This document shows positions 1 through 26,775 of a DNA stretch of 64,000 bases, piece by piece. Both the position numbers and the translations under genes were made by a program. The DNA is from Ceratodon purpureus (Eukaryota; Streptophyta; Bryopsida; Pseudoditrichales; Ditrichaceae). The stretch lies in contig CM026426.1 in the NCBI GenBank assembly GCA_014871385.1, positions 38,209,776-38,273,775 on the forward strand, written 5' to 3'. The notes below the pieces were generated by a model. That model saw only the letters and a program-made list of their open reading frames with translations, was not told where the DNA came from and ran no database searches. How positions within the stretch are numbered: the stretch's first letter is position 1; each line of letters starts with the position of its first letter.

Positions 1-3000
1 GCAGCACATGTTAGAAAAGTGAGGACAGGTCAGGGGCGCGTAGGTAGAAAACAGGTGGAAGAGCTACAAGACAAAATATGTCAAGTGAGCACGGAAAATT
101 CTTTGCCTCCGCACAAGGAGTCAGAAACCTGGGACGATAGGAAACGCAAGAGGTTTAAGGTGAGAGAAGGACCTGATGTCCTACAGGGGTTAGACAACCT
201 AAGATCGGATTCAGACGTCATGGAAGACATTCTTTATGTCTCTCAGTTCTACACTGCAGAGCATTTAGATGGCGGGGATGAGAGTGGAAGGGTAGGTGAC
301 TTAGGTGCAGGATTGGAGCCACCCAAAACTACTGTGTCTGGGCTGAATTTACCAGTTCGAAGCTCATCTGTAGACAATGATGATCTGCACTACATTGGCG
401 ACAACATGAGTAGAGAAGATGTAATGCAGAGGGCTCAACAATACGCAGCATCGCTTACTCTGGACGGTGAATACAAGCTAGGACCCCCCCCTGTTCCCAA
501 AAACATTGCAGGATTGTACTACCTCCTTCAGGAATCCCCTAAGGCTATAATAGTAGAGCGGTCATTACTCCACGACCCTGAATTGTGCATGATGGCGTTA
601 GAAGATCTGGAGATACATGACCAACTAGGCACAAAGATCTTAGCATCTATCGGGCCTTGGGTGGCGTGGAGAGAAGCTCAGGTAATAAACACTTTGTACT
701 ACGGACCCTAATTTAGTGTGCCGTACTGCAAGAAGTAGGTTGTCTTTGTGGTGCTTTGAAACATGGCTTATGGGGCATTCCATGAGACTTGATATTGCAT
801 TCAGTGGGATACACTAAACAAACTTTGTGGTACCAATTTGTTTTTTTGTACTGCAGGGTGCTGGTAAGGACGGAAAACATCACGCAGAAGTGGTCCAGTT
901 TGTCATGATGTCTGTTAAACCTTGGAATCCATACATAAAACCAGCGAACCTGGAGGGTAGGAAAGCAGAACTAAAGAAGCTGAGATTGTACTTGAAGTAT
1001 CTAGGGGAAAAGGCAGAGTACGTGTCCCTCAAGCTCAATGCCGAGATAGCACTACAGGAGAAGCGTGAGGCTCACATTCGAACTCAGCTGCGGCGGTTTG
1101 AGGACAAAGAGAGAATGAAAGTCGAAGACAGTACATGGGCATAGTCGCCTCTTTTCAGGATCTTGACACGGCAGACTGTTCAGGGGCTACCAGATCGACC
1201 CTGGAACCACACTTCAGAGGAACTAGAGAGTATTTTGGTTGTGTTGCAGAAGGAAGCTACAGCTGAACCAATGACCCTAGAGCTAGAGTGCCCTCATATC
1301 GTAAGGGCTTTGAAGTTGTATACCAGAGTGTCGCTAGGGCGCACTTGTGCTCTCGCCCATCCCGTGAATGGGATGACGAGGGAAAAAGTGTTAGCCATTG
1401 CTAGGGACAAGACAGAGTTGCAGCGACTATCCTCTTGTGCGCAGGACATAATAGACATTGGGTGGTCATTGTTTCCTTGCATAAAGGTAGGGTTCTGTTA
1501 TCCTCTCAGTACATGTTCGAGCGATATGGTTGGTCTAATGGCATTTCAGGGCTGGAACCAGGAACCCGTACTGGAGAAAATTGAGAATTTCCTCTGTCGT
1601 GTCACTAGACGTGCTGTGCTAGACATGCATCGTACTGATGCGTACAGAGATGTGCTTGCTGCCATGTGGTGGGCACAGGGTCTTAGTGATCCAACTTTGC
1701 TTCGAAAACATTGTGATGAGGTATTAAACTGGCAATTCAGTTGTAATGTGCGTGAAATACAATGTCTAGGTTATTTGCTGCATTTGGTATTGATGTAGTG
1801 CAGAATGGTTACAGTACTTCTAACATCTGCCATCTGTCTATATGTCAGGTTACTTCGAAGATACTATATGTACGTGAGGACGTCGATGTTGGTTGGGGAA
1901 TGCTTGGACTGGATAATGTACCGTATCCCCCTCCATCTTTGAAGAAGTATGTCGATAAGGCAGTACAGGCGCTGATGGACCTCCGCGAGAAGGAATTGGA
2001 ATTGACTTTCCAGAGGCTTGGATATAAAGGAGCGCTGCCGCCCATCGATCTCGCACATTTGGATATCCCTTTCTGCTCTCAATTGATTAGCTCCCAAACA
2101 TTTCAGATAGATTGGCGGAATATAGACGTGTCTCCAGAGGCTCACGGGGGTGAGAGAGAGAGGAGAATATTGTATGAGCATATGAAGAATCCCAGCCCAT
2201 CAGTGCTTCTACCAAACCAGAGGTGGTATCGACGAACTCCAGCACATCTGGCTTTAAAGCTGGGGCCGTCCCGTATATCCGCCACTATTTTCCCCATGCG
2301 ACCTCTGGATCTCGACAGTGACCTTGGTTCCTATCCCATAGACGATATAGCAGGACAAGACCCCCCCACGGGCATCCAGCTAGCGGTGAACATAACACAT
2401 GTCCTGCATACAGACTGTGTGGGTGATGGTCTTCCTACATCCAGCAGTATAACAAACGTGCTCCCTCTAGCGACTGTTGCCCCAAATCGGGGTCAACACA
2501 TCGATGCAACTCCATCTCCCGTAACACCACCGTCGCGGATCGTAGCCCATTTCCTGGAAGCAAGACCATCGATTGGATTGCTACGTACACCAGAAGATCC
2601 GGCTTCCGCACCACCAGCCTTTAACCTCAATGAGTCGACTAATTCACGAACAGAAGATTACAAACCAGCAGAGTCCTTGCCATTGGGGATACCGCGACCT
2701 CATACAGATCCGGCACCTCGAACCTCCACAGTATGGGCCCAGCCCAGTAGGTAGTATAGACTGTAGCTTATCCCATGTAAATTTTCATACAGTTGCTAGA
2801 ACGAAATCCTCTTCATTGTCCTTTCAAACTTTGCCATCCCTCTAATGTGTATTCTTTTTTGTACTATAGCCTTGCAACAAACTGTATGTTCTTCTTTGTG
2901 CTACAACCTTGCGACGTACTTTGTACTTATGTTTGAATTCTCATGTCCTACATGCAGCGCGTACAGAATATCAAAGGAACGTATATCTCAAGATCATGGC

Positions 3001-3330
3001 CGAGGGGAGGGGGCATTCTTGTCTTTTGTCTTCCGGAAAGGCAGCACAACCTTGTACCCCGTCCCGGACATGCAGTTAGTAGACTCGCCAGAAGGTAGAG
3101 TCAGTTCCCCCTTGATGGACTTCTTTTGTGCTTGGTTTCAGGACTGCGTGCCAGAGCCAATTCTCCTTTCTAATTTACTGCCAGCAACAGCTCTGTACAA
3201 AGTCATCCCGAAGACAACGGTCATTGAAGCACTGCGTCGGTGCTTTCATATGAGCTCTGGGTTCATGCACGTGAAGGGCAATACGATCATGGTCCGCACG
3301 TTTAGGGGGGCCCACGCAGGGGGTGACTGA
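1..3330 (+). CDS. MULE accessory gene B of E1, function unknown (N-terminus outside window)
   Basis: I do not recognise the protein, but it is clearly homologous to the minus-strand gene B of E2. Exons read as before-1 to 681, 857-1486, 1550-1720, 1849-2750 and 2958-3330, with GT-AG introns (682-856, 1487-1549, 1721-1848, 2751-2957) that keep phase. Matches to E2-B include a GPPP..GLYYLLQ segment, SPLF followed by RPWNHTSEEL, ALKLY.R, and LYVREDVDVGWG. The middle is charged and probably helical (about 900-1130); the C-terminal third is Pro/Ser-rich and then globular. One TAG interrupts exon 2 at 1142-1144, where the E2 copy has Trp (TGG), so the copy is probably inactive. The ending is uncertain: TGA at 3328-3330, or a splice to the open segment at 3460. 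Homology to E2-B is strong; exon ends are by eye. Confidence 0.7.
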
Positions 3331-3459
3331 GATGACTACATAAGATCTCACCCGTATGGTATTTGTCCTCTCTTTCACAGCCATTGCTTGAGATCATTTG
3401 CGTAAGACGTGTACTCCCTTACATTCTCTTGTGCTTCTATTTCGTTTATCCACTAGGTT

Positions 3460-3849
3460 ATGGAGAAGCTAGAGTTAGAGGTGAAGGAAATCCTGGTGGC
3501 AATGGTGGACCTTCAGTGTCCTCCCGCCCATGACAAGCAAAAAGAGCAGCTTCAAGTAGACCGATCTGGAGCAGGGAGACGGATGCCAGTGTCCCTTTCT
3601 AATCGCCGAAAAGTACCATCGCAGCAACACAGACAGAGAGGGCTTTCAGTAGTACGTGGTGCAAGTCACAAGGGTGCACCGTTGCAAGTCGTGCCTTTTC
3701 CAACACGAGATCAGTTTAAATGTGTTAAGCCCAGCAGTACGTATGTTGAACTTTTGGGAGGATTTTCTAGATGGAAGAGTAGAGTGGAGTCTAGAGGGTT
3801 GAAGCATTGTGGATGCACCTCTGTGGTGTCATGTGTCCACAACACATGA
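3460..3849 (+). CDS. Possible last exon of gene B in E1
   Basis: This is an open segment of 129 codons right after a good acceptor (CCACTAG at about 3458). It encodes a basic, Gln/Arg-rich sequence of no recognised family. If it is spliced from a donor near 3312, another frame giving a Gly/Arg-rich tail is equally possible, so frame and membership are unsettled. It lies between gene B and the 3' end of the convergent transposase. Confidence 0.25.
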   Translation: MEKLELEVKEILVAMVDLQCPPAHDKQKEQLQVDRSGAGRRMPVSLSNRRKVPSQQHRQRGLSVVRGASHKGAPLQVVPFPTRDQFKCVKPSSTYVELLGGFSRWKSRVESRGLKHCGCTSVVSCVHNT

Positions 3850-4209
3850 GGTTGTTGTGCACATTTTAAAAGAAATATATGTGGTAAAATTTATGTACTG
3901 CATGTATGGCTACTGTTGTTTGGCTACTACAAAGGGAACTCCTTCATGTCCGATGCAATAACAATGCAACAACGTAGTAGACTTAGTATAGAATACTCTG
4001 ATGTTTATATATCAAATGGTAGGTACGAACCGTGGTACACATTATGCCTAACGGGCAAACGAGAAATACTAAAGCATACAAAAAGAAATAGCCTATAAGG
4101 AGCACTACATAATAAAGGCTCCAAATTACCTTCATCACACATATTTAGATCATTAACTCTAAACATCACATAGATTGAGGGAAAGAGAAGTATCCTGCCA
4201 GACCAAATG

Positions 4210-7200
4210 CTACACCCTAGATCGTTTACCGGATTTCGGTGTTTCAAGGCGACCTGGTTTTCTCTTTAAGGACCAGTCGCCACCTCGAAGTGGGAATGAC
4301 GCATGGGTATCCTTACTGTCAGGACGAACTATTCCACGAGCTATCATCCTTTTGTACTTCCCTCTTATGATTTTTAAGTCTGACACCAGATGAAGCTGTA
4401 GTGTAGTGTGTTGTGCAGTAGTACATAGAAGGTCGTTGAAAACAACCTCCGGGCTGTCCTGTGTGAGTGGTCGTTCTGTTGTTGGTGCAGAGTTGTACTG
4501 CATCTCCGTACTGTTTAGAACAATAGGGTTCTTTGCACTACCAATACTTGGCCCTATTATACATGAAGCACTAGAATTGTTGTCTGATTCTGCACCGCCC
4601 ACATCCTCATCCCCTTCTCGGGGCATAGATTCAAAACACTGAGCTAGTGGGATTGTCCTTTGTACTCCACACTTTGATCCTGCCTCCCGAAGGATAAGGC
4701 CCTCCTCAATGTCAGGGTGTTTCATGACAAAACACTTCATCACATGCTTGCACATTGTGCCCTGTTCTGCCATAAAACAATCACACTGAGCCCATTCAGT
4801 ATCAGGTCCATAAACGGTATGTACCTGGGGATAATTGTTCACTGAGACAACAAGTGCAATATCCTCGCCCCCTGGATTCAAGCTAACGTAGTCATCTGGG
4901 ATTTCTTGGCCGGCCAATATGGCACTACAAATGATAATCTCTTGCTTCCTGTTTCGAATGAATCCGTACTCCTTTAACACCCTGAAGTACCAGTAGTGCC
5001 CAGTCACTACCCGCTGTAGATCATCAGCTGTCCAATCCATTCGCCGCCCCATAAATCGTTGCTTCTCCAGGTACAGGATGCGCTTTAGATTAGCGTGGTA
5101 CGACTCTATAGGAGCATTCGTGTTCTGTCTTGCATGAGGAATATTCCGATTAGAGATGCAACACATCCCTATCTTCTTCCTCCAATGTTTATCAATGTAT
5201 TTCATGAATCTCTCTGCAGATGGGCGACGCAATCGAATCTTATCAAGTTCGCTGTTGGCCCACTCCACAGGGTCATTCCCGTGGACGAATCCCTTCCCAT
5301 ACATGATGTCCCCAACTTCCTTCAATGTTTTTGCCCTGTCCTCAATGCGACTTATCTTTGTTCTAGCATTCTCGGCCCATGCCTTCTTCACATGCCAGAA
5401 GCAAAGAAGGATCTTTGACTGTGGCCAGAGCTTTCTACAGTCCAGCAAGACAATGAATAAGTCAGGATCACTGGACAAAGCAAGACAAGTGAGAGCAAAC
5501 CACTGTTGATTTATGAAACATCCTATTCATTTAGAATTTGAACTCTTCTAATAACTTACTGCAAGACGTTAATTTCCGCTTGGGCATTGTCAACAATGAT
5601 AGAAGAAGGCTCCCAAGAAGGTAGTTTCTTGGTGACTTTGTCCTTCAAGGCCTGTAGTATAGGCTGTAGATGTTCTTCTTTTGCTGAAGTAGAGAAGAAG
5701 TACGCTACAGGTATCCCGCTTCTCCATTCGTCAAACACCATCACGGTGTATAAAGGATACTGCAGAACATATTTGCAAGAGCAGTTAGTAACAGGGAATG
5801 GTTTGTAGTGCAATCCAGACAACGGAGATATGCTTAGACGTAGTCCACGAACGTGTAACCACTCTACACTTCGAATGTTTACTATAAGGTCACAGAACCT
5901 CCTCAGCAGCAGCATTCAAAACAAAACACAAAACATGAACTGAGATTGTCTTACCCTTGAGTGGCTTGTGCCCAAGGTAGCATCGATTGCAAGGGCACCT
6001 TTATTTCCAAACTTCAGCAACATTTCAAACTGCCATTCAGTTTGAAATCCGAGTGCAAACGGGTTGTTCTGCTGCTCAGCGATATTCATGTCGAGCAAGC
6101 TGTGCTCCTGGTAAAAAAAAACACGTTTAATGTTCTCGTCCTTCCACATTCTCAAGCTCACAACCTCGTTCTTGTGCTTCATCCACAAATCCCCTGCACG
6201 CTTGTTGGCCAAGTTCCTGACGTCATGAGGCAACACGATCATGTCCCTGTGCACTGGGACATTCTGTAAGGCGAGCTCCATCATGTGCGCCTTGTGTTGT
6301 ACCATCACCTGAGTTGGTGTTAAGCCACAATCCAGGAGTTCAGTTAGCTCACTCTTCTTCTTATCAGAAAGACATGTGCCCATAGAATGTTTGAAACCAG
6401 CCACTGTCACACCGTGACACTGGTCCCCATTGCTATTCACATGCTCGCTTATCTTGTATACAAGCTGACACAAGCTGTTATCCATGTAATTTTGCTTCGC
6501 AATGAAGTGCCGCAAGCACCCCCTCTTCATCGAGGTTCCAGCCTCCTTCTGACCGATGCGAGTCTTGTGATGGCCTGTCTTTCTGTCAGAGACATGACAT
6601 CATAATCCGCCACGGGCTTTTTCCCTCGCTTCTTCTTCTGTAATACACTGGCTATTGTCTTCTTCCTCTTCAATTGCTCTGCTTGTAGGAGACCCTTCAG
6701 GTCCTTGATATAGATAGCCAAGTCATCAGCAGGACCGTAGTTACAACTGAACATGTGCAATGTATTGCAGAACAACATTTAGAATTTGAAGGTTTTGATT
6801 CATTTTTAACTTGAGAATCTGCTCCAAACCATATGAAACAGACATCAGGGATTTATTACCTAATAACCTTGGACGCGCTATTTGCTCGGGGGATATTCAG
6901 AGAGCCTGGTGCCCTCTTCCTTTGAGTCTCCTTAGTGAACCTGCACGGGAAATTTTTATCCATACCTTCTCCAGTTCTGAAGTCATCCAATCTGCTCCAT
7001 GGAATTACGGCAACCTCGTGTAAAAAGTATTGTCCTGCACTTTGAGTTCGAATTGGCTCCCAAGCAATGTCATCTTTGCAAAAAGGTCCTGGTGGTGGAG
7101 TTTGCTTGAATTCCCTCAATTTCTTCAGGAGCTCCTTCTCGCGCTCTGGTCCCTGGTAAGGGAACTCTTCGGTATCCCAGTCATCAACAAGTACAATCGG

Positions 7201-8160
7201 TGGTGCCTTTCCTGAGCGTGTACGGAAGTTCCTCTTGCGGACTGTAGGCCTTGCAGATCGGCGCTTTGGTGATGCTGCAGGAACGGCCTCTGCCTTTGGA
7301 GCACCATGAGCCCCTACACCTTTCTTGAAAGTACCATCGGTAGAAAGACCTTCTCCCACGTTCTCTGACTTCGTCGCACACTTTGGAGTTGTCTGTTTTG
7401 AAGGGCCTTGAATCTCAGTCAGATTGACCTTCGTACTCATACAATCTGCAGCCTTCGATGTTGGCGGCTGATCACACTTGGCATCAGCTGCGTTTCCACA
7501 TTCTCCCCTACTGTTCCCCTTACCCAGATCTACATCAATATAGTTCTCAGAAGCAGAAGAATGTTCTGACAAGTATACTTCAGAGTCTACATACTTATCT
7601 TTCATTCCAGTACTTAAAGAACGGAGTCTCTCAATAACATCATCAGTTCCAGAGGATAGCATAGAAGACTCATCACTAACAACTATCCTCCGCACTGAAC
7701 CACCTAGACCAGCAGAGTTTTGGGATTTCTGGTAAGTTGAAAAGTCCCTAGACAATGTGTTATCACTTGTGACATCAATGTGCACAGGACGCTCATAGAA
7801 AGAAGGCTGAGATGAACCCTCCCAAAGGTCCACTAATGAGCTCGAGGAATACATAAATCCAGCATCATTCAAATTGAACGTGGAATCACTGCTGTACTCT
7901 GAACATAAATCAACAAATGATGGACCAACTTCCCCTTTCTTCAACGGCCCACCAATCTGAATTGGATCCTCCCTAGACTTTCCATTCCTCGCCTCTCCAA
8001 TTTCATCAAGATGTTTCTCAATTGTCAGGTCAACAAATGCTGCACCTAGTTCATAAAGACTTCATGTCACCTTCTTACTGAGCTTCACTGCTTCATGTAA
8101 ACGCCTAGGGACAATGCAACAGTCCGAGTCATCACTGGACAGATCAACACCTGGGGCCAT
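4210..8160 (-). CDS. MULE transposase A of E1 (four exons, nearly intact)
   Basis: Mutator-like transposase that should cut and join the element ends. Exons read as 8160-6860, 6746-5955, 5759-5560 and 5470-4210. The N-terminus is acidic and Ser-rich, then basic. A WRKY/GCM1-like zinc region follows, with PCRF in exon 1 and MKRGC..EHVN..CHG in exon 2. The DDE core shows LAIDATLGT (first Asp), VMVFDEW, SSIIVDNAQ and LLCFWHVKKAW. A SWIM finger CDC..MCKH is present at about 4770-4740, and a basic tail ends GKRSRV. Exon 3 is exactly 200 nt, as in E2. Defects seen: TGA at 8062-8064 (codon 33) and a one-base frame change within exon 2 near 6570. The start at 8160 is the first ATG, followed by an acidic segment. 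The family call is secure; activity is doubtful. Confidence 0.85.
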
Positions 8161-8179
8161 TTTTTAGAACTACGTAGGA

Positions 8180-8400
8180 AGCCAACCCTAAACCACAGAA
8201 TCAAAGGGAAGACAAGCATGTCAACCACACAAAACAAAGAAACCTAAACCACATCGCTTCCTCTCTAATTCCTCTCCATTGCACACGTTTGTTGCAGGAC
8301 GAAATACATCTTTTAAGCAGAACATGTGTTTGGTGCAGCATAAACCCTAAGCCGCATCCACCCTAACCCTAATACCAAAAGGAACCCTAATTTTTGGATC
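8180..8400. promoter_or_regulatory. Telo-box-rich 5' flank of MULE transposase A (E1)
   Basis: Just upstream of the transposase start the plus strand has several CCCTAA/AAACCCTA copies (near 8187, 8341, 8364-8372 and 8386). In plants, AAACCCTA telo-boxes are common near transcription starts of genes active in dividing cells. Similar copies lie near the start of gene B in E2 (25732 and 26028). This suggests the two genes share promoter chemistry; the exact transcription start is not visible. Confidence 0.4.
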
Positions 8401-8739
8401 CTGGTAGAACAACAAATAATCTGCACTGCATGATTGGCCTAAACCTTTAGATACCCCCATTCTTAGAAGAATGTCGGAATTATCCGTTATCTAAAGTGCA
8501 GTTTAAATTCTCAGATCCGGATTAGTTGGCAGCACAAAAACTTATGGGACCCGCCATTCAGAATACCCCACTGCAAGACAAGCCATGGCTGGAGTAACAG
8601 AGCCCAACAAAAAATCGTTAATGCTCATCCATAGGCCACGTTGGGCTGGGAAAGACAGCTGGCATAGCCGTCACGGGTGAGCTGTCAGAAGGCCGGGTCC
8701 CATTGCAACCCGGGATGGTCATGGGAGAGACAGCCTGTA

Positions 8740-8807
8740 CCGGGCAGCCCCCTCCTGCCCGAAATGTGCAAAATGTAGAGTTTGTGGGGGGGTAGTTAGT
8801 GCGACCC
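8740..8807. repeat. Right terminal inverted repeat of E1 (outer part)
   Basis: Read on -, this end shares with the E2 left end an outer G(A/G)GTC..C.CTA.CT..CCCC block, then an A/T-rich stretch, then a run with CAG and CCCC(C). The match is about 15 of 20 in the outer bases and weaker inside. The partner repeat lies left of the window, so the full length is unknown. Confidence 0.55.
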
Positions 8808-9333
8808 GATTTGAGTAGCTGCTATGACATTATGATTATACGGTCATTAACCATCAAGCACAATCACAGAGATATGAAATTGATTGGATTCATTATGTGT
8901 CCCCAGATTCATTAAAAGCAAAAATCATCTTTTAGCCTACAGCCTACATGGACTCGACATTGACCACATTGCATTACATTGTCAGAGCCATATACCGTAG
9001 CTTCCTAGCAGCTTGGGCACCTTTCCGCCTAATAATTATTTAAAATACGAAAGTCAATTAGGCAACCTGGAAAATAATATACTAAAATTGGGCCGTTTTA
9101 AGAAGTAATTAAAAATAAGATAGGCATTCCTCCATGTTGTTCTTCTAGTTCATAGATGGTTATTGCAATTTTCATCTTAGGCGGCTGCGATTACCCTAAA
9201 CGTTTTCCTTAACCACCATTAGTTACCCTAAAATCTCTCTTTCATGTGTGTCAGGGTTTTCTTTGGTGTCACAGTTTGTTGCATGTGAGAGATATGCTGT
9301 ATTTGTGAGAGAGTGAGTTGTACAAGACTCACA

Positions 9334-11345
9334 ATGGCGAGGCACAAGACATTACAATGTATGTTTAGACCTATTGACAAAGATGAGATGCAAGTATGTG
9401 TGGAGCGTGAATTTGCAGCATTAGAGAAGGGATTCGAGCTGGAGAAAGCTATGGAGAAGGAGGTTGTCAAACGGCCTGTTGGGAGACCCAAGAAGGAGCT
9501 TCAAGCAGTTTTAATCTCACCAAAAGTGGAGAAACGTGAAGAGTCAACTTCAAAGAAGGCTCAGGTTAGAGGCAACCATACAAACTGGTTTATGCCTACT
9601 CTTTGGGATCCCATACATGCTGCAATGAGAGTGCATAAGAATTATACTGCTACTATGAGGTATTTGCAATCAAAGTAGAAGCTTCCAGGACAGACTGGCA
9701 GTGTTTATGATGATCTCAGTAGAGGGACACTCTTCAATTGGTTCACTCCTTCAGGAGAGTTGAAAGAAGGGGTGAAAAAAAAAATTTATGATGAGAAGTC
9801 TTCGTTTACTGAAGGTTCTCAACATAAATATGTTCTGGCAGAGTATGCTGAACTAGAGGAAGAGATCATTGTAATGCTACAAGGCCTTAGAGATGCAGGT
9901 CAACCCTTGTTTGCATCTTCAGTGAGAACAAGGATTAGAACCCTAATTGAAACTAGACAACCTCAATTACTTCAGCAAGAAGGCAACAGAGCTTTCAAGG
10001 TCAGTTTAACTTGGTCAAGGGCAGTTGTGAAAGACAACTTGAACTGGAGCTACAGAAAGGTTATAGGGACTGCAAGAAAACTACCAAAGGATTGGGAAGA
10101 GCTAGGGTTGAAGATGGCACAAAGAGCTGCTTATCTTATCAAGGCTTATTCAATTCCACCAGAATTGTTTGTAAACACAGATCAAACAGGCATACACCTA
10201 ATTCCTACAGGAGGGGCTCATACACGGGATGTTAGAGGTTCAAAACATGTACTGGTTCATGGAGCAGATGACAAGAGGCAGATTACAGTGTCAGTATCTT
10301 CTACAGCAGCTGGAAACCTTTTACCATTCCAAGTTGTTTTCACAGGGACAACCACAAAGTGCTTACCTATACAGAATGTTGGGCGAATTGACTGTGAGCA
10401 AGCTGGGTGGCACCTCACATATTCAGAGAACCATTGGTCAAATGTTGAAACATGCGACTTTGTGATCAAGATTTTACAAACATACAGGCAAGATCAAGTT
10501 CAGCGTTTAGGACTACCCAAGGAGACCAAACTGATATGGTTGATTGACTGCTGGAGTGTGCACAAGTCAAAGGAGTTTAAATCTTGGATGAAGGTTAACC
10601 ATCCCCAAATCCTTATCATTTTTGTGCCTGCATGTTGTACAAGTGTCTACCAACTAGCTGATGTTGTTCTACAGAAGCCATTCAAGCATGGATTTAGACA
10701 AGCATTTGACTCCTACACATCAGATGATCATTATCCAACAACTGAAGCACAAGGCAGCAAAAGATGTGAAGGTTGATACTAAAATGAAAGCATTGAAGCC
10801 TCACCTTTGTGGCTGGCTGTTCAAAGCGTGGGAGCATTTACAAAGCAAGCAAATGGTTGAGGCAATTACAAAAGGGTGGCACCAATGTGGTTTGCTGCAA
10901 GCCTTTGAACCACCATTTCAGATGGCTGCCATGGATGTGAACATGAAGACACCTCTGTTTGAGGTTGAGACAGAGGAGGTTGAGCCAGAGGACAACAAAA
11001 AAGAAGAAGATGTGGACACAGATCAGCTTGTAGAGTCAGTTGTGCAAGATTCATTAATAAAAGTTGCTGAGATTGCATCATCAAACAGGAAGTCAAGTCT
11101 CTCTACTCTCAAAGGCATGGCTCGAAAAAGGTAAGCTCTTGCAAAAACAAACCACAAATTCTGTGAGAATCATGTTTGAAGTGATTAGATCTGTGAAGAG
11201 AATGCAACGAATATGCAATATGGTAATGAAGAATACCTGTGTTTGAAATTGCAGACCTGTTGCAGCCTTTAACACACCTCCTGCTGCCTCCAAGGAGAAT
11301 GCCGAACCTCCAAAGAAGCGAGGCCGCCCCAGGAAGAACCTCTAG
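9334..11345 (+). pseudogene. pogo-type DDE transposase with AT-hooks at both termini
   Basis: A transposase of the DDE_1 (pogo/Fot) group. The ATG at 9334 opens a basic N-terminus with the AT-hook-like VGRPKK (about 9478-9495). A helix-turn-helix-like region follows. The catalytic core shows VNTDQTGI with HLIPTGG (about 10170-10210), LIWLIDCWSVHKS (about 10530-10570) and YQLADVVLQKPFK (about 10648-10686). A GT-AG intron at 11131-11254 joins ARKR in frame to a last exon ending PKKRGRPRKN, a second AT-hook, with TAG at 11343-11345. Two lesions are seen: TAG at 9676-9678 and a frame change near 10720-10740 between two otherwise conserved segments. The family and the last exon are well supported by reading frame; the gene is broken. 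Confidence 0.8.

Positions 11346-15404: not shown

Positions 15405-15405
<1 letters not shown>

Positions 15406-15435
<30 letters not shown>
15406..15435. repeat. Poly(A) run of 30
   Basis: An uninterrupted run of 30 A. It could be a retroposed tail on +, but no recognisable SINE or LINE body precedes it. Confidence 0.8.
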
Positions 15436-15436
<1 letters not shown>

Positions 15437-16189: not shown

Positions 16190-17045
16190 TTTGTTCATTT
16201 ACTCAATTTTTTACTTCTACAATTCAATTTTGTAAAATAATAAGAATATGCATAACTAAATATGGAGAGTTCAATTAAAATTAAACACGACTACCTCCAT
16301 AAGAATAATTATACAGATATTTAAAACGCTTCACGTATATAGTATTTAATTTTTGATCCTTTGTAATTCCATTAAAAATAGTAGTAGTATGAATTCAAAG
16401 ATACTATTTGCGCGTTTATTGTAAGAAAGGAGTAACATTTAAAGGCATGAACATTTTATTTTGTTTAACATTTTTTTAATTCATAACTTGTTCCTTTCTT
16501 CACTTTCCTACTTCTACATTTTAATTTAGTAACAAGATTAACATACACATAACTAAATATGGAAAGTTGAATATGAACATAACACGATTAACACCTGAAA
16601 AATGATTAACTCACTTTACGTATATAATATTTAATTTAAGTTCATATTTAGTTTCAAGATACTATTTGCTAGTATACTGTAAGAAAGGATTCACATTTTA
16701 ATCTTTAACATTTCAACCTTTTTAACATTTTCCCAATTCATAATTAGTACTTTTATTTATGTTTTACTTCTACAATTTAATTTTATAAAAAGATAAAAAC
16801 ATGTTTAACTAAATTTTGTAAGTTGTGTTCACTCTGAACATAATTGATACTGAAAGGTTGATTACACAGATATTTAAAACACTATTCGTGCAGAGTATTT
16901 AATTGTTGTTCCTATTTTATTATTCGTAAAATATTATTCGCATTTAAATACAGTGTTTTCTTGTTTATTATAAGAAAGGATGAACATTTAAACTTTAAAC
17001 ATTTTACTTTGTTCAAAATTTTCATAATTCATAATTTATTTTAGA
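16190..17045. repeat. Diverged ~250-300-bp tandem triplication
   Basis: Anchor blocks recur in the same order. ACTAAAT.TGGA.AGTT (or a relative) occurs at about 16255, 16551 and 16806; TAAGAAAGGA..(A)CATTT at about 16422, 16680 and 16971; CATTTTATTTTGTT-like blocks at about 16450, 16700 and 17003, each followed by AATTCATAA. Spacings are about 250-300 bp. The copies have diverged enough that only anchors align by eye. Confidence 0.6.
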
Positions 17046-17075
17046 TTTCAACATAAGTTAAATCTCCAATACATG

Positions 17076-17325
17076 ACCATATTCGTTATTTTGAGACAAT
17101 TTCAGAACTTTGAGACTTTTTGCCTACAATTTCAGCAATTGTTTTTAGACAATTTGAACTTTTTTTTGACTTTCTAATTATAGATTATCCTTGACTCGAG
17201 GATAATCTTCCCATATATAGTCAAAAAGTTTTTGACAAATATAGAATCAATCAAGAAATCAATGAAAAAGCTATAGTCAAGCATTAAATTGAGACTATGA
17301 AAAGTCTCAATATAACGAATATGGT
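17076..17325. mobile_element. 250-bp foldback/MITE-like element
   Basis: ACCATATTCGTTATTTTGAG at 17076 and its inverted partner ending at 17325 match at 21 of 22 positions. The centre holds a further palindrome GATTATCC...GGATAATC around 17185-17208. No coding capacity and no clear target duplication. Confidence 0.55.
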
Positions 17326-17446
17326 GTTATACGTGATTTAATTACTGTATGTGCACATTGATTTTTTTTAAAATATAAATGAATCTCAATGCACTTTCTG
17401 GTGAATTTGTTAACAAAAATTTTTAATTAGAGAAAAAGTAAATATG

Positions 17447-17525
17447 GGAGATGATTTTGTTATGTTGGAGATGATTTTGTTACATGGAAGATGATTTTGT
17501 TACGTAGGAGATGAGTTTATTATGT
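17447..17525. repeat. Short tandem repeat, ~20-bp unit, four copies
   Basis: The block (G)GAGATGATTTTGTTA recurs four times with drift, the last as GAGATGAGTTTATTA. A local slippage array, 250 bp left of E2. Confidence 0.7.
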
Positions 17526-17779
17526 AAGAAACACCGCTCTCGTATAGAAGTATTTTTAATGATTTCCATAAATGTGTGGTTTAAAATGAAGTATTAATAT
17601 AGTTGAGTAATTTTGTATGTGTGTAACATCGTAATTTGTTACTAGGTTCACTCCATGAAGAGGATTAAAGAAACTTTTACTGTTCACCATTATACGCTAA
17701 GAAGTTTGGACCATTAACCTTACATAATTCATGCACAAAAGTATTTATTAAAAAACATATCCTATTAACAGTCACTAAC

Positions 17780-18045
17780 GAGTCTCTCTATCTTGCCCCT
17801 ACGAGCATTGCAGTTTATTCATTCCAGCGCAAGGGCAGCCCCCTCGTCCCCGGCCCTCCTACGCACCCGATCCTCCCCTCGCCCGACCCTGGCCGAGCGC
17901 CCCCCCCCGGCCTCGTGAACCCCCATTCTCCCCGCCCGCCCGCGCTGCCTCTCCCCCGTGCCCGGATATGCCCCCCACCGGGCCCCGTTCCCACCCTCGC
18001 GTTCCCATGTCATCGTCTCCCTCGCCCCCGTCGCCCTCGTACCTG
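17780..18045. repeat. Left terminal inverted repeat of E2
   Basis: About 266 bp, C-rich, inverted copy at 26494-26775. Shared blocks include GCAGTTT.TTCATTCCAG, CACCCGATCCTCC, TCGCCCGACCCTGGCCG, TGAACCCCC, TTCCCATGTC.TCGTCTCC and CTCGCCCCCGTCGCCCTCG. A run of nine C here corresponds to a 25-G run in the right copy. Confidence 0.9.
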
Positions 18046-18491
18046 TCGTCTCTCGTCAATGCCGCCGGCACTGTAGACGTCTGCAGGGATTTCTGTTTCT
18101 TGGCGGCGGCGCAGCTCTGTGATGGTGACGCTTCTTCCTGCTCTGGTGAGGCCTCTTTGGCGCCGATGTCTAGTGCAAATTTGGATGCATTGTGCTCTCA
18201 TCGCGGGACTGATGTTGCTGGAGGGCGACGGTGGAGGGTGGTCGAGAGTTGATCATGGGAAACGCTGCAATTCTCTGGGAGTGGTTGCAGGTTTATTTGA
18301 GAGCGGACTTCATGATATCTGAGACTTCGGAAAGCTAGGAGGTCTGAGGAGAGTGGAGGGCGATGGAGGCTGATGGTCCAACCCAAATTGAGGAGACGAA
18401 TGCTCAAGGGAGCACTCTCCTGCCGGAGATGGAAGACTTCTAGGCCTGGAACTTCGACGGTGATCCATGACAGACAGGGTTTAGGATACGC

Positions 18492-21400
18492 ATGTCTCCT
18501 CGGTCGACGTCTAAGCGGGACGACTATGGGGCCGCAAGAAGGTCTTCGTCTGTGCAAGATCTTCGTGGGGACAATCATGTTGTTGACCTAGCTGGCGTGG
18601 AGGACAACTTCAGTTGGGGCGTTGGTTCTTCTAGTGCGGTTGTCTCTGGAGACTCTGTAGATGTGGATAATGGTGCTGTTGACGAGTATGACGGTGTTGG
18701 TCTTGTATCTAATGTTGGGGGTGCAGTATAGCAAACCATCAAAGTGGAGGACGAAAATCCTGATAGAAAGGGGAGATCAAGCATGAAAGGGAGAGAAGAA
18801 AAGAAGCATAGGCCTTCTTGGAGGTATATGCCGGATAAGGTGAAGATGTCCGTGCAAATCTCACTTCCTAATCCTTTCACTAGGGCAGACCTGCGCTGGA
18901 AAACGAAGTGCAATCAAGGGCGAGGTAGGTGACGTGAGACACAGAAAGCTACAATACCATGGGACCGACTAGATGACTTCTTGGAGGGCGAAATGTCAGC
19001 AAGGCAACATCCCTGCACCTTTGTCGAAGAGACCAGAAAGTGCAAGAAGAAAGGGGAAAGGAAGTAAGTGCGAGCAGAATCAGCTGTCCAGGAAATTAGG
19101 TAAGGGTCCTACAACATTTGCTTGTCTTTCCACCTTGACGAGTTCCATGCCTGAACCTTTTCCGAGCTTGTCCTAATGTACCTACTATCTCGCCATCCCT
19201 GTCATTATAATTACTCACGTCCTAATGTTTCGCCAGAGGTTCTGAGTCTATCCACTGTCTGTCCTAATTGTGATATGTGCTCGTCATGACAGTGACCTCA
19301 TAATCTAACTACTCTGTTTTCGGCAGGTTTCGGTGTCAATATGGTCCAGAGGATTATACAAATCAGTACAGGGTGGAAATTCAGAAGGTTTTTGCCCATA
19401 CCCTTCCTCAAAAGAAGAATTCGACTAATCAAAGAGAAGCCCTGCAACGTGCTCAGAAGATTGTGGACAAGGCTGCAAAGGAAGTAGCAGCAAAACCGCG
19501 CCCTAAAAAGAAGAGTAAGACAGACCCTCTACCTGACTTGAACGCTAAAGCTGTAGATGAAGATGTTGAAGAGGAGGCTAGACTGAAGGAGGCAAAGGAG
19601 CGGCTGCTTCAGGCTCAGGCAATGCTGGATGCAGTAGTGAAAACAAAGAGGAAGACTAGGGTGGGCAAGAGACATGCAGGAATGTCCATGAAGCGTGGAT
19701 GCCAGTGTAATTTTGTGGCTAAACAATTGGAAGTTGATGAAAAATTGTGTACCATTCAGTTTCATTGCAATGATCATGTTAACAAGGCTGGAAAGCCCTG
19801 TCATGGCGCAAAATTTGGAGGACAGCGAGCAGGACTATGTGGACACTTATCAGCTGCAACAAAACAGTGGATTGTTGACTCACTTAGGTCAGGTAAATCA
19901 CCTGTACAGGTCATGGCAGTCCACAAGGCGGAGGTGCTGCGATGTGCTCAGAACAACCTCCCAGCAACTCGAGATATTTTTGTTATGCCTTCTGATGTGT
20001 ATAACATCGCCAACAAATTGGCGAAGGAGTTGTGGGAAAAGCATCCACGGGATGCTATGAACATCCGTATGTGGATAGACGAAAATCTTGACTGTTTCTA
20101 TCATTACAAGGAATATGGCAACATTGAGTTAAATGACCCCCTCCTGATGAAGATGACCCTTTCTGCTTCGCCATCCAAAGCGAATGGCAACTGGAAATGA
20201 TGGTTAGGCATGGCCACCGTAGACCTCTGTCTATGGATGCAACATTTTCGACTAATGGCCCAAAGGTGAGTTCTGTGCTTTAACCCTTTAAATAAGTGCT
20301 TCGCTCAATTCGTTCCCTGCTTTGTGGACAGGCTGTCCTCAGTAAGATGTCTTCGTTTTTCACACTATTCTCATGTTCTTTGTATGTGAAGTATCCCCTC
20401 TATTCTGTTATGGTCTTTGACGAATGGAAGCAAGGCATTTCAGTTGCTTTTACAATCCAAGGACAATCAAGGGAGATGGACATAGTCCCATGGCTGAAGA
20501 AGTTGAACGAAAGGTGTATTGCAGTAAAGCCTGATTGGAAACCAAGTTCTTTTCTGGTGGATAATGATGATGCCGAGCTCAACTCTATAAGGTAAGACCT
20601 GTACCAACCATGCGCATGTCTTGAGGTTAATTAAGAGACTACCATAACCCTGTCCTAATCCTTGTTCCGGCTGTCCTGAATTTAGAACGGTGTGGCCTGA
20701 GACTGAGCATGTAGAGGGACAAAGGAATGACGACGTGAAGATTATTTTATGCTTATGGCATACCCGCAAAGCCTGGCTTGAGAATGCAATGCAGAAGATA
20801 AGGGCGAACTACCTAAGGGCAGAAGTCGTGGGGGCCTGTGCAGATTTGGTGTACGGGAACGGGATTCAGCAGGGGGACTTGGCTGTACGGGCGGCTCAGG
20901 AGAGGTTCCAACACCTGAAGGCGAAGTATCCACGGACCAAGGCGTTCTTCTCATACTTTGAGAAGACATGGATAGCAAAGATCGAAATGTGGGTGAAAGG
21001 GTATAGAAATATACCTCATGCAAACGAGGACACGAATGCAGCCGTCGAAAGCTACCATGCGAATTTAAAGGCCATTCTTAGGACAAGCAGGCAAAAATTT
21101 GATGGAAGAAGGGTGAACTGGCTAGTATATCAGTTGGTTAAGGAGGTCCTTACCCACTATTGGTATGTTGTTCAATGTAAACTGTATGGTTTCATAAAAA
21201 ATGGTAAAGCTGAAGGGATAGTGGCCAGTGCTGTCATGAGGGCTGCAGAGATTCCGGACGAGCATGTACGAATCTATGAGGAGGAGGATGTGGCCTATGT
21301 GGCATTGCAGACCAACTTCCCAGAGATTTGGGTTGTCATGAGCCGGAATTCAGACTGGGCTAACTGTAACTGTCCTCTAGGACAGAGAGGGAACATCTGC

Positions 21401-21686
21401 AAATATGTAGTCAAGGTTTTCAGCATGTTCAATAATGAGGTTGAGCCTGCAGATATTATTAGGTATGCCGGATCTCTGAGGTGAACCATTGCCCCTGGAT
21501 TCAATACTGCTGGGATGGATGCTTTTGGAAAGGAGGAAGCCACTGCTATGGAAAGGACAGCAGCTGTGAAGACAGAGAATCCTGAGAAGACGCTTTTCGA
21601 TTTCAAAGACGTATTGCGAGACTGTGAAGGGATGGCCGTAGGGTATACAAACCTTAGGAGTCAGGACACACTTCGTGGCTCTTGCG
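18492..21686 (+). pseudogene. MULE transposase A of E2, decayed
   Basis: Homologue of the E1 transposase with the same exon plan: 18492-19063, 19327-20265, 20392-20591 (200 nt, as in E1) and 20686 onward. Conserved parts are IPWDRLDDFLEGE with PCTFVEET (exon 1), CQYGPED, MKRGCQCNF..CHG, LSMDATFST (first catalytic Asp), VMVFDEW, SSFLVDND, LCLWHTRKAW and a SWIM-like finger in which CxC..CKH has become CNC..CKY. Lesions seen are TAG at 18729-18731, TGA at 18930-18932, a one-base frame change near 20150, and TGA at 21482-21484, where E1 has Arg. Coding similarity continues to about 21686. The ATG at 18492 matches the acidic start of E1. Family call secure; the gene is dead. Confidence 0.85.
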
Positions 21687-22028
21687 CATGAATTTAGAGG
21701 GAAATTGTCTGATCTAAGAGTGAAGAAAAACAAAGGTCTCCTTCACCCTCTGTCACAGCCATCCTTCAAGGTCGGAGATAATCCAAAGAACCTCCGTCGC
21801 TTTAAAGCTTTTTTGGAGACTGGTTGCTAGAAAAACAGTACTAGGACAACTAAGAGTACACGTTAGGACAAGTCTATCTTCTTAGGACAGGCATGAGCCC
21901 TAGAAAAAGTCTATCTTATCAATACAAGCATAAGCCCTTGTTCTTCATGTGCATTTCTTGTATTTTATAAAACTCACTATCAATTTCTCTCTGGTTACAA
22001 GAAGTTCAATCCTAACCTGCAGAGATTA

Positions 22029-22341
22029 GTGACAGCAATGTCTTCTGGAATCTGCCCTTTTTTCGCTGTCCTCTCTGTCATATTTGTCGTCTGTGTCCTG
22101 TATGTGTCCTGTATGTTGTCTTTGTCCTCTTTGTCCTCGGCTTCACTATTCTCCTTTTTGGTCTTTTTTTTAAATTTGTTTTTTTCGTTTTTAGTTTACT
22201 TTTATTTTTATTTTTTAGTTTTAAATTTTTTTATATTCTTTTTTTCTTTGTCTCCCCTGTTTTCTTCATTTTTCATTTTAAATAAAGATTTCTGTTATCT
22301 CATTTCTTAATTTTTTTTCGTTTTATTTGTCCTTCCTTTAT

Positions 22342-22372
<31 letters not shown>
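22029..22372. repeat. Pyrimidine-rich stretch ending in a 30-T run, between genes A and B of E2
   Basis: The intergenic centre of E2 is T/C-rich with repeated TTTGTCCT pieces and a T run at 22343-22372. On - this would be an A-rich tail region downstream of gene B. No gene is supported; the frames here are low-complexity. Confidence 0.6.
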
Positions 22373-22375
<3 letters not shown>

Positions 22376-22855
22376 GTGGCGGAGGAGTTGGATACGGACC
22401 CGGCTTGCGGGACAGGAGAGGTCAGGGTTGGGGCTGGTCCGATAGATGAGCCAAGTGTTCCGGGAGTGGTCGAAGAGGGCGAGGATTTCATAGGGGCCAT
22501 CACCCCGGTTGTGCTGTTCAAGGGCCCGTACTAGATGGGGTGCTACTAGTATTGTAGATAGTGAAGACAGATGGTAGGAACGAGTACATGTGAACACTGT
22601 AACCACAGACTTATACTAATGACTCGCGTTTTGTAATACATGTTGCGTTGTTAGGACAACAGCTTCTTTAGAAGACACGGGTCTTGTTGGTAGAACAACA
22701 ACACATTATCCCTATTTTGAAGGGACGTTTTGGATAGCCACTTTGTAAGGACAGGCCGCGTTACTAGTCTGGGCAATGGTGAAATACTAAAAAAAAAATT
22801 AGGGAATTAAGGACTTTGTAACAGTTCTTCTCCACATCTCCAAAGCCTCGAGAGT

Positions 22856-25260
22856 CTAAAAAAAATACCCCATCTCAATGTTCTCCCGAAGGAACAGTAC
22901 GTGGCGGAATGAGGTCAGGACAGCCTCGTACTCGATCCCAGGACGATCGACCGACATGTCCCATAGGACATGTTCTAGCTGCGTTGCCACCATGTCTCGG
23001 CACGCCTTCACAAATGTCCTCCTCCAGGTGATATACTTGGCAACCTGATCTTCTCTCTTTGCTCCCGAGTCCAGCACTGTCTTGAAGTCCTCGAAAGCGG
23101 TCCTTGTCATGTCAAGAGTAGGGAAGTGTATCTTACCACAGCGAATCAGCTCTTCCATGGCGAAAAGCACCTGCGCTAGTCTGGAATGCAGCTTGTCCTG
23201 AGTTAGGCCACCCACGGGGCATAGCATGGGCATCCGGCCGCCCACTTCAGATCGTGCGAAGAGTTTCAGTGCCTGCGCCATGTGAGTGGGCTTAGTGCAG
23301 TGATCCATGTCGATGTACTCGTCCTCTGTCCATTGGATTAGTGCATTGAACTCCTCTACCGTGTGCTGGAAGGGGCGCCGGATGATGGAGGGTGCCGGTA
23401 CGATGATCAACTCTCGAAAAAGAGGGGACCAGCACCAGGCCTTATCCTCAGCCTCGATCAGCAAGCCCTCATTGAACTTGATGACCTCGTCTGCGATGTA
23501 CTTGGTCCGACTCTCCTCCACTGTCCTACGATTATGAGCCCACTCTCTCTGCGCCACGGAATCTGTCAGGACGTCGTCATGGTGCAGATAGAATGCCTCG
23601 ATCTCCTTCTTGATTTCGTCACCTAACCTCCTTACAAAGGCTGTCTTGCACTTGTCGACTCCATCAACAACTGACTTCGGTAATGTATCCGGCAAAAATC
23701 ACCATGACTACCGAAAATACGCTCAGTCCACCGGGTTGTCCTAACTGAAATCAAAAAATCACAAATACTGAACTTTTGAAATACTCACGAGGATCTCGGG
23801 TGTGAACTTCAGCACTCCCCACGCCGATGCCACTCTCCTAGACAGCTGCTCCATCTCCTGCATGGCTTTCAGCTCCTTGGTCGCTTCCTGCAAGTCGGTG
23901 AGTTTCTCCAATGCTATGATTTCCCCACTCTGCTCGACCAAACAATACAAGCTGGGAGGGGGTCCGGGCGGCTTAGGCGCTGCTGAAGGATCCAAATCCG
24001 GGAAGAGCTCCCTCGCCCTCTCTTGCGCCCTCTTAATACATTTCCCCCGATAGGACTACCTTCCCTCCTCGCCCTCTTCCCTGTGGCCGTGTTCTGAGTC
24101 GCCGCAGCTGCCGCCACTACTGCATGTGTCTTCCCCCTAACTCCCTGAGTCCCTGCCGCTTGCCAGTGCTGCCCGCCCCAATGCATCTTCCCCTTCTGCC
24201 CGTATTTCCCCTTCCCAGTCTCTACCCCTCCACCTGATTCACCTGCTGCACCCCTCTTTGCACTTGATCCCCCACCTCCAATCTGGCCTCGCTGATATCT
24301 ATGCCTCTCCTCTAGCACGTCTGCGACAATGGGCTCAAACTCCACCCTAACCTTTTTCAACGTCGGGGTCACCTCCACGGGCTCGAACTCCTTCGCCATC
24401 CGAGGATGGTCTGCGCTCCCACTCCTGATCTCGACAACGTGCTCCCGGGTGTCCTCACTCCCGATGTCTTCATCACCTGATTCTTCATCATCAACGACCC
24501 GAGATCTCTTCCCAGGTCTTCCAAACTTCGGCATGAGATGCTTTCCCAGCATCTGCCAGGGAATGGACAAATTGTATTTTTTAAATAGAGCCCGGGACTC
24601 CTTATTCCCATTCAACCCCCGAGAGGGATAGATCTTTAGCCTCCCCAGCTTCTGCGAGTCATAGACCGGACACATGTCGATTTGTCTATGCCACCCCAGG
24701 TTCGCCTTATCAACCATGTCTGAGTTGCAGTACCGGCATATGAAAGGAATTTTTGCCCTTGCTTTCCCACTTCCCTGGGAGGACACATAGGAGCGTCGCC
24801 AAAGGCGATTTACCTCCACCATCATCCAATCATATTCGGAGATGGTGAAAGCGTCTCGGTTGGGGGGGTAGGAAGTCCATGTACTTTGGCAAACAATCAC
24901 CTCCTCGGGGCCGTGCTTTCCCTACACAAGTAACTGACCATCGAAATTGAATTAGTACGTGCTGCATGAGAAAGGGGACAGAAGCAGCAAGCTAGGACAG
25001 AGTTCAATTCTGGTGGATAATTTACTCACCCTTGGTCTTGGCCTTGGTGCGTGCTTTTTGATTTTCACCTGCTACTCCACCTGCAGATCTTTGAAGTCCA
25101 GCACAGTTGCTCGGTGGCGGAGCACTTTGCATGCGTCATGGGCTAAGAGTCCACCAAGGTCGGAAAGGGGTGCTTTGATTGACGTGAGATGCAGAAGGCA
25201 GCAATGAGTGGCATAATTCAGAGTCCACGAAACCCCTAAACCAAAAGAAACGTAAAACAA
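22856..25260 (-). pseudogene. MULE accessory gene B of E2, decayed
   Basis: Homologue of the plus-strand gene B of E1. Reading 5' to 3' on -: an exon ending at 25030 with a basic KKHAPRPRPR end; an in-phase intron 24922-25029; a long exon from 24921 with a CxxC..H.x4.C finger (CRYCNSD..GWHRQIDMC, about 24750-24670), acidic and Gly/Arg-rich linkers, then KPPGPPPSLYCLV; and a last exon 23695-22856 with WSPLFREL, RPFQHTVEEF, ALKLFAR and LFLRENIEMGY. The finger suggests nucleic-acid or protein binding. Lesions: a one-base change in a G run near 24047 shifts the frame, and TAG lies in frame at 25072-25074. The junction near 23700-23789 is unclear. It lacks the long C-terminal extension of E1-B. 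Confidence 0.65.
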
Positions 25261-25616
25261 ACAGGAAAGGAAGAAAAAAAATTAAATTTGAAACAAAGAA
25301 AAGAAACAGAAGAGAGATGATGAAGTAAACAAGGGCTGCAATGTAGTGGAAAATGAAAGGGATTGCGACAAGTTGTGGACAATGGATAAGTGATCCAGTC
25401 CGCATTGGGAAATGGGAAATAAAAGCGAATAGAGGGGAAAATAGAAAACAAAAGTAGTAGGGGACAAGAGAAACAAGCAGAGTACAAGATAGAGGGAAAG
25501 GGGGAAAAGATGGTGCGAAAGAGGCAAAAATATGTGAAAATGGCAGAGGTTGGAAGGACAGGGGAGAGACAAAATCGAAAGTAAAGACAAAGGACAGGAG
25601 TAACCAACAACAAAGG

Positions 25617-25644
25617 AAAAAAAAAAAAAAAAAAAAAAAAAAAA
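25617..25644. repeat. Poly(A) run of 28 inside E2
   Basis: A homopolymer in the A/G-rich 5' flank of gene B (25260-25830 is strongly purine-rich on +). No gene is seen in this flank. Confidence 0.8.
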
Positions 25645-26493
25645 GGAAAGAAGGACTTGTCCAGGGTACAGGGAGGTTGATAAGGGAGAACAAAAGAATA
25701 CAGAAATTAACAAACTATACAGGTAAACCCTAAACCAAGGGCATGACGAAGAGACTGGAGAGAAGAAAACAAACATGAAAACAAGAGGACAATGATAAAA
25801 AAAAATAAGGACAGTAAGTAGGACAGCCGTTTGTCGATATGAACCAGGAAACTCTAAATCCTAGAACCGGCATGGAAGACAAAAATCCGCAAACTTAGGA
25901 CAGGGGGCAGAATACAATGACTCGGGAAAGCCGGTAAGTGAAGACAACGACGACGAGGAAGACACCAGCGGAGGGGAAAACAACACTCACCAGGTGATTG
26001 AGGTTCGCCATCGTCTCAACGTCGCACCCTAAACCTTCGCCTCGCCTCCTGCTAGCTTCCGCGTCCCCTGTCGCCACCGCCTAATCCCGGCCAATAACCT
26101 GAGTCGACGATGAAGACCCCAACGCCCTCGACACCACCTCCAATCTTCGGGGAAGATATCACCGGCGACAACAGTATCGCCCCAGACCGCGGGATGAGAG
26201 GCGAAGAAGAACCGCAAAGAGATCGCACCCAGATGCTGGCCGTTGTTGCGTCCCGCCCCCGTAGCAACAAACACCGAGAGCGGTATCAGCGAAATCCTCC
26301 CCTTCCTCCTCCCCAAAGACAGTAGGCAACTCTAACTAACAGCAAACGCAACGACTATCAGAAATCCTAAAGCATCTCATAGGCGCAGCTCTAGACAAAA
26401 CTCCGTAATGCACCCACCTCCATCGGAATATTCCGCCATAGCCCCGCAAAGCAACGCAACAAAGTGTCTCTTCTCCGGAAGGGAGGTACGAGG

Positions 26494-26775
26494 ACGGGTA
26501 CGAGGGCGACGGGGGCGAGGGAGACGACGACATGGGAATGCGAGGGTCAGAAGAGGGCCCGGCGGAAGGCAAACTCGGGCACGGGAGGGAATGCAGCGTG
26601 GGCGAGCGGGGAGAACGGGGGTTCACGGGGCCGGGGGGGGGGGGGGGGGGGGGGGGGCGCGGCCAGGGTCGGGCGAGTGGAGGATCGGGTGCCTAGGAGG
26701 GTCGGGGATGCGGGGGCTGCCCCTGCCCTGGAATGAACAAACTGCAACGCTCGTTGGGGTAAGATAAAGAAACCC
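26494..26775. repeat. Right terminal inverted repeat of E2
   Basis: Inverted partner of 17780-18045, about 282 bp. It is longer because of a 25-G run (26633-26657) where the left copy has nine C, plus small indels. It ends GGGGTAAGATAAAGAAACCC at 26775. Confidence 0.9.

Follow-up and report, generated by a model that had tools for sequence, protein, structure and literature searches.

The window analysed here is a 64,000-nucleotide stretch of the genome of the moss Ceratodon purpureus (C6:38209776-38273775), and it holds two Mutator-like elements (MULEs), E1 and E2, in each of which a transposase gene (A) lies tail to tail with a second gene (B). We found that they represent two of three lineages of a large family, the third being named after an element that we call E3; in each lineage B encodes a C2HC zinc finger, and scattered copies of a seven-base word peculiar to that lineage are found in the DNA of the element. 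The explanation that we favour, and that we hold to be only just on the probable side, draws on the VANC proteins of the Arabidopsis VANDAL elements: B would be an anti-silencing factor binding the lineage-specific word in its own element and equipped, in the E1 type, with a Ulp1 protease. Each lineage would thereby encode a transposase A together with a convergent accessory protein B; the C2HC finger of B would bind the lineage's own word scattered in the element DNA; B bound to the word would keep host silencing off the element, in the manner of VANC on VANDAL elements; and the Ulp1-type cysteine protease of E1-type B could strip SUMO or a similar modifier off silencing proteins at the element. 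It is because a selected accessory gene with a finger occurs together with a conserved lineage word, as in VANC, that we take B for a word-reading anti-silencing factor. The protein that binds the words would thus be B, and neither A nor a host factor, the protease of E1-type B is putatively active, and the net effect, by analogy, is putatively anti-silencing.

Both E1 and E2 are MULE elements and part of a large group in the moss genome. The Pfam MULE domain PF10551 was matched in exon 3 of the E1 transposase (E 1.8e-5, 25.5 bits, below the curated cut-off of 27.6) and in exon 3 of that of E2 with an E value of 0.061 only; the remaining A exons gave no match to the MULE domain in the Pfam scan because the domain is split over exons. 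The A proteins of E1 and E2 are ~40-43% identical over corresponding exons, and the third exon, read by eye, is ~200 nt long in both, as the earlier note on this DNA had it. The features of the superfamily, a transposase domain accompanied by terminal inverted repeats (TIRs) and a target site duplication (TSD) of 8-11 bp, are present, the TSDs being 9 bp long in E2, in E3 (C10:6337955-6345890, with a perfect TSD and TIRs of 215 bp at 99.5% identity) and in c1, an E1-type relative. The latter is complete (C1:25978076-25996552, 18,477 bp), with the perfect TSD GTTCTAGTG on both sides and imperfect TIRs of ~30 bp, and aligns piecewise with E1 at 93-96% DNA identity. E1 itself continues to the left of the window, into a locus that we call L009, and no partner TSD for it was found in the 18.8 kb leftward of the window. 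A further E1-type relative, c11 (in locus L032), and 18 E2-type loci (L011-L028) were also used for comparison.

The earlier note had described the convergent pair as present twice; its arrangement holds, in coordinates and strands, for both window elements, and the number does not, the A-B family comprising well over 100 loci. To count them, B exon queries were compared with the whole genome (362.5 Mb, of which C6 makes up 110.5 Mb or 30%), the best 150 of 190 and of 328 candidates were scored and then merged into loci, and the counts for A and B below rest on the matches so listed, linkage and selection being measured in this one genome. With the E2-B query, an A lies within 15 kb of 115 of the 149 merged loci and is convergent at all 115; with the E1-B query, 83 of 144 loci have one so near, convergent at 82 of them. 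Random placement, computed with the sizes of four contigs rounded, would put 0.4% of B loci near an A. Seen from the other side, a convergent B stands within 15 kb of 79 of the 86 listed A loci that are not on C6. The unpaired B loci lie mostly on C6 (25/34 for the E2 query and 46/61 for the E1 query); outside C6, seven of 75 and seven of 39 B loci, respectively, lie more than 40 kb from any listed A, and at least one of these, at C8:9746933 (L019), does have an A that is absent from the matches listed. Nothing among these matches suggests that B is mainly a single-copy host gene living away from MULEs.

Sequence comparison of the B copies clearly indicates purifying selection. The median ratio of nonsynonymous to synonymous substitution rates (dN/dS) is 0.10 for the core of B, 0.03 for the finger part and 0.23 for the linker, as against 0.04 for exon 4 of A, at a median dS of 0.7-0.9 for the B pairs compared; these medians refer to pairs retained at dS 0.03-1.5, that is 29/153 for the core, 14/55 for the finger, 24/55 for the linker and 37/66 for A. 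For the Ulp1 domains of the E1 type, nine of ten pairs were saturated, and the second B gene (B2) of c1 compared with the broken B2 in L009 gave a dN of 0.10 and a dS of 0.42. Linkage to A and selection together support, within one genome, the earlier suggestion that the element benefits from B, and the homology between the B genes of E1 and E2 on which it was founded is real, at ~26-30% identity.

The finger follows the pattern C-x2-C-x12-H-x5-C in all lineages, and its strict form was found in 20 B copies from the three of them, some fetched copies remaining unmatched. The residues that follow DK in the finger are ANLGW in 12 of 15 E2-type copies, SELAW in one E3 copy and NALSY or NGLSY in four E1-type copies. 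A finger had been noticed before in E2 B; it is there, with the pattern just given, and also in E1-type B, the copy of E1 itself lying in L009, so that it is not restricted to E2. E1-type elements often have two B genes in tandem, B1 adjoining A and B2 standing ~7-8 kb further out, and in c1 and c11, the two E1-type elements that were read through, both B genes terminate in a Ulp1/C48 domain. The description of B as uncharacterised was half right, the E1-type tail being a C48-type protease domain. For the protease, Pfam C48 was found with an E value of 5e-4 in each of the B2 genes of c1 and c11 and of 0.2 in c11 B1; the single-sequence scores (20.4, 20.4 and 11.9) are at or below the cut-off of 20.7. 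A three-sequence profile matches yeast ULP1 (E 1.7e-4), and a Foldseek search with the predicted protease model returned nine matches at E <=0.001, all of them to Ulp1, NEDD8 protease or SENP5. Taking the catalytic His, Asp and Cys and the oxyanion Gln to be at their usual Ulp1 positions, we found the first three in all four domains (B1 and B2 of c1 and c11) and the Gln in three of four, His and Cys being aligned to ULP1. In c11 B1 (L032:8268-8939) the oxyanion Gln is replaced and in c11 B2 it is retained, a difference that hints at a possible division of roles between the two B genes.

The protease is a property of one lineage. No ULP match at E <=1 was found in the 18 E2-type loci, and the E2- and E3-type B tails that were read (L013, L027, L035, L036) end without Ulp1, L036 giving one chance-level match (E 0.1); a C48/Ulp1 gene reversed relative to the transposase was found in the E1 type, and not in the E2 and E3 types. 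The B exons of the E2 and E3 types gave nothing usable in Pfam scans, and a profile of the B core compared with solved structures gave chance-level matches only.

The third component of the proposal, the words, went unmentioned in the earlier note, as did the partly known kind of B and the broken state of its window copies. In the E2 group the word is TAGGACA, or TTAGGAC, which overlaps it; the window E1 and its relatives c1 and c11 have GCACTAC/GTAGTGC, and E3 has CCAGGAC. The top 7-mer of a control stretch (54-63 kb of the window) proved to be a 14-bp minisatellite; the enrichment test was therefore made with neighbouring sites collapsed, against a third-order Markov null. In this within-element test, 12 of 15 element stretches were significant (p <=0.05, z 5.8-15.9). 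E2 has 13 dispersed TAGGACA sites for 1.7 expected; GCACTAC occurs 25 times in c11 (1.6 expected) and 14 times in c1 (1.8 expected); and of the 19 CCAGGAC sites of E3, the part tested contains 15 dispersed ones for 2.9 expected. Per 10 kb, TAGGACA reaches 17-29 copies in the four tabulated elements of the E2 group and 0-2.7 elsewhere, GTAGTGC 7.6-17.5 in the E1 type and 0-1.3 elsewhere, and CCAGGAC 17 in E3 and 0-3.8 elsewhere. Across the 18 E2-type loci, TAGGACA counts range from 5 (L018) to 23. Small word arrays exist at 22067-22138 of the window and at L033:6001-6036, and most sites are dispersed. The telobox-like TTAGGGT is also enriched in two E1-type elements, with 10 copies in c1 and 14 in c11 for ~2 expected in each.

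The assignment of words to lineages holds genome-wide. Close word pairs were located in the whole genome and compared with gene hits within 8 kb. For TGTAGTGC (a GTAGTGC pair), 79 of the 100 places listed out of 120 are near E1-type genes, which with their surroundings take up 0.77% of the genome, and none is near E2- or E3-type genes; for TTAGGACA (a TAGGACA pair), 26 of 44 are near the E2 type, two more near an unassigned B and none near the E1 or E3 type; and for CCAGGACG (a CCAGGAC pair), 11 of 39 are near the E3 type, three more near an unassigned B and none near the E1 or E2 type. Anagram controls gave 0/63 and 0/21 near any A or B genes. Merged into 2-kb clusters, the counts become 45/61 for TGTAGTGC, 18 (+2)/32 for TTAGGACA and 11 (+3)/30 for CCAGGACG. 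Conservation was measured for TAGGACA only. In alignable non-coding DNA of the E2 group it is intact in 219 of 255 cases, compared with 1042 of 2746 for anagram 7-mers, and is better kept in 30 of 30 qualifying pairs (the filters retained 30 of 171 pairs). Against flanking 7-mers, in 251 of 342 ordered pairs retained, it is intact in 507 of 784 non-coding cases (65% versus 814/3737, 22%), with an identity of 0.83-0.89 at the TAGGACA columns and 0.56-0.78 within ~12 bases.

Several observations weigh against an anti-silencing B that reads these words. In the statistics, L026, L035 and L036 (a 4.2-kb E3 piece) were not significant in the within-element test, and two of nine controls were (z up to 6.1), which shows the null to be a little permissive; in E3, GCCGTCC scores equal to CCAGGAC. 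Compared with their reversed controls, two of the three pairs are no commoner (TTAGGACA 44 versus 99 and CCAGGACG 39 versus 40; TGTAGTGC 120 versus 32), and it is therefore only their location that is telling; many pair places are moreover homologous copies of one site and not independent, so that binomial P values overstate the case. As to position within the elements, five of the 15 TAGGACA copies of E2 fall inside a rough coding mask, about eight of the 19 CCAGGAC of E3 in protein-matching stretches, and about half of the c11 words in coding DNA, in a split that is rough since stop-to-stop frames take in intron ends; some c1 words (TTGTRCTGCAG), by eye, resemble splice acceptors. On the protein side, neither DUF1985 nor DUF287 was found in the B exons of E1, E2, c1 and c11 (E <=10) or in those of further E2-type loci and E3 (E <=1). 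The predicted models are also of low quality: the AlphaFold model of the B core has a mean predicted local distance difference test score (pLDDT) of 44, unfit for structure search, and that of the protease is weak, at 51. Finally, the TIRs of E2 and E3 are long, unlike those of VANDAL elements, described as none or short and degenerate (PubMed Central (PMC) number PMC6446971).

Three other explanations account for part of these data. Subterminal repeats bind the transposase in CACTA or hAT elements, and the words could similarly be binding sites of A, with B as a helper of integration or assembly like mudrB. We regard this as unlikely. A also diverges between lineages and is inherited along with B, so either protein could be the reader of the word; the words, however, are not terminal, those of E2 spanning most of the element with none in the TIRs and those of c11 being scattered along some 19 kb (measured on the locus, not between element ends). 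About equally improbable, in our opinion, is that the words mark where some host transcription factor or chromatin protein binds, each lineage having recruited one as an enhancer, and that B is unrelated to them and acts, for example, by interference with the SUMO pathway in the E1 type. Enhancer clusters likewise show conserved, dispersed words, and the enrichment of the telobox-like word in c1 and c11 agrees with such recruitment, but it would take three host factors to serve three lineages with three words, no place among those listed joining a word to the genes of another lineage, whereas a match of word and lineage comes naturally to an element-encoded reader that diverges along with its word.

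That B is a captured host gene (transduplication) of no use to the element, and the words mutational or homology artefacts, is disfavoured already and seems to us very improbable. MULEs frequently capture genes, ULP-carrying MULEs are known (PMC2528002), and many word pairs are homologous copies of a single site; against this stand the low median dN/dS of core and finger at the divergence given above, the enrichment of words within single elements relative to simulation, and the better preservation of TAGGACA than of its flanks.

The closest known systems are from flowering plants. VANC proteins (VANC21 and VANC6 of Arabidopsis VANDAL elements) are products of MULE accessory genes, made of conserved domains and a variable region like B, and bind family-specific motifs in the non-coding DNA of VANDAL elements (PMC5735166, PMC10398659). 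The moss elements resemble VANDAL in having family-specific short words enriched in their own DNA, here both enriched and lineage-placed. They differ in that B has a C2HC finger and no DUF1985 or DUF287 match, in that the moss words, small arrays apart, are mostly dispersed and the VANC targets stand in tandem repeats, and in the words themselves (TAGGACA, CCAGGAC and GTAGTGC here, YAGTATTAY and AGTTGTCC/AGTTGTAC for VANC); the TIRs of the E1-type c1 are short and imperfect. Because DUF1985 and DUF287 were not found and the E2 and E3 TIRs are long, B appears, on present evidence, not to be VANC by descent, and a VANC-like demethylation by B would be expected by analogy only.

Regarding the protease, ULP-carrying MULEs of melon, rice and grapevine have a C48/Ulp1 gene opposite in orientation to the transposase (PMC2528002), and, according to a review, the KIUs of Kaonashi (KI) MULEs are genes of the VANC type that carry Ulp1 and target a motif of their own (PMC13317346). 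The E1 type is like Kaonashi in that its C48/Ulp1 gene is reversed relative to the MULE transposase, and unlike it in its tandem B genes, 9-bp TSD, short imperfect TIRs and moss host, as well as in having sister lineages, E2 and E3, that share the finger and core and have no Ulp1 in the tails read. The same review dates the angiosperm Ulp1 capture to the monocot-eudicot split, and the moss capture would therefore be separate from it or much older. These comparisons leave the two-gene elements of maize. Maize MuDR has a convergent gene geometry and a 9-bp TSD, and we know of no Ulp1 domain or scattered words in it. Like the moss elements it is a TIR-MULE with two genes, mudrB being the second (PMC6446971).

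ULP-carrying MULEs and VANC systems are thus already known, in flowering plants. Among the titles listed from the open PMC literature we found no moss system of such a kind, the one paper matching moss, Mutator-like and ULP1 concerning Ginger transposons. As far as that literature tells, what is new is that the host is a moss, that a single genome houses three lineages and a word for each, that B has a C2HC finger, that B genes occur in tandem and that Ulp1 is confined to one lineage. We also propose, with slightly less than even confidence, that mosses have a transposon-encoded, sequence-specific anti-silencing which is either an independent VANC-like invention or far older than flowering plants, and in which reader and word have co-diverged. 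Sequence-specific anti-silencing by transposons has so far been worked out in Arabidopsis VANDAL elements. If the proposal is true, a single genome contains three MULE lineages, each with a finger protein B matched to a word of its own and one with a SUMO-type protease in addition; self-recognition as a route out of silencing would have arisen early or repeatedly; and three natural reader-word pairs would be at hand for swap experiments.

Neither window copy of B is intact. In E2 B, the relatives read through the position of the premature stop listed in the table below, and the end of the gene looks rearranged, poly-T/poly-A runs at 22343-22372 and 25617-25644 bordering the inverted tail. E1 B1 is defective as well, ~0.82 kb being gone at ~3295, including the catalytic half of the Ulp1 domain; c1 B1 retains that half, yet with one in-frame stop. 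Of E1 B2, the Ulp1 part is in L009 and a B2-like core lies 36 kb further left, insertions probably separating the two.

Table. Features of the window (positions 1 to 64,000; L numbers denote loci outside it)
Feature	Position	Strand	Remarks
E1 element, part inside the window	1-8807	.	A-side terminus at 8807, GGGTCGCAC...; continues into L009, to the left of the window
E1 gene B1, core and front of Ulp1 domain	1-3330	plus	zinc finger further left, at L009:9508-9804
E1 gene A, MULE transposase	~8160-4210	minus	about four exons (by eye)
DDE_1-type frame	9289-10776		between E1 and E2; PF03184 match, E 5e-5
E2 element	17780-26775		8996 bp; TIRs ~280 bp, 82%; 9-bp TSD GTCACTAAC/ATCACTAAC, 8/9 matching
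E2 gene A, MULE transposase	~18380-21690	plus	about four exons (by eye)
TAGGACA, 15 copies	19169-25902	both	scattered between the E2 TIRs, 0 in TIRs; ~1.7 expected
Small tandem array of TGTCCTNNN-like units	22067-22138	plus	in the DNA separating A from B in E2
Final 52 codons and stop of E2 B	22376-22534	plus	inverted relative to the remainder of B; compared with L013
E2 gene B: C2HC zinc finger (CRYCNSDMVDKANLGWHRQIDMC), variable linker, core	22856-24921	minus	premature stop at 22856-22858
14-bp minisatellite, ~12 copies, word GGTAAGACTGTTT	56988-57155		

The E1 transposase also has a CxC..CxH motif near 4740-4790, which we take to be SWIM-like. C6 accounts for 105 of 143 merged Ulp1 loci, 105 of 144 E1-B loci and 74 of 149 E2-B loci among the matches listed, and stops are frequent in the C6 copies. 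C6 is probably a sex chromosome; a review (PMC13120521) puts the genome of this species at 358 and 349.5 Mb and its sex chromosomes at ~30%. Around the relatives, an intronless histone H3-like frame was noticed by eye ~0.6-1 kb past the right end of c1 (L030, near its 3' end), and a second, diverged MULE transposase fragment lies at L032:1181-2448, beside the main A of c11.

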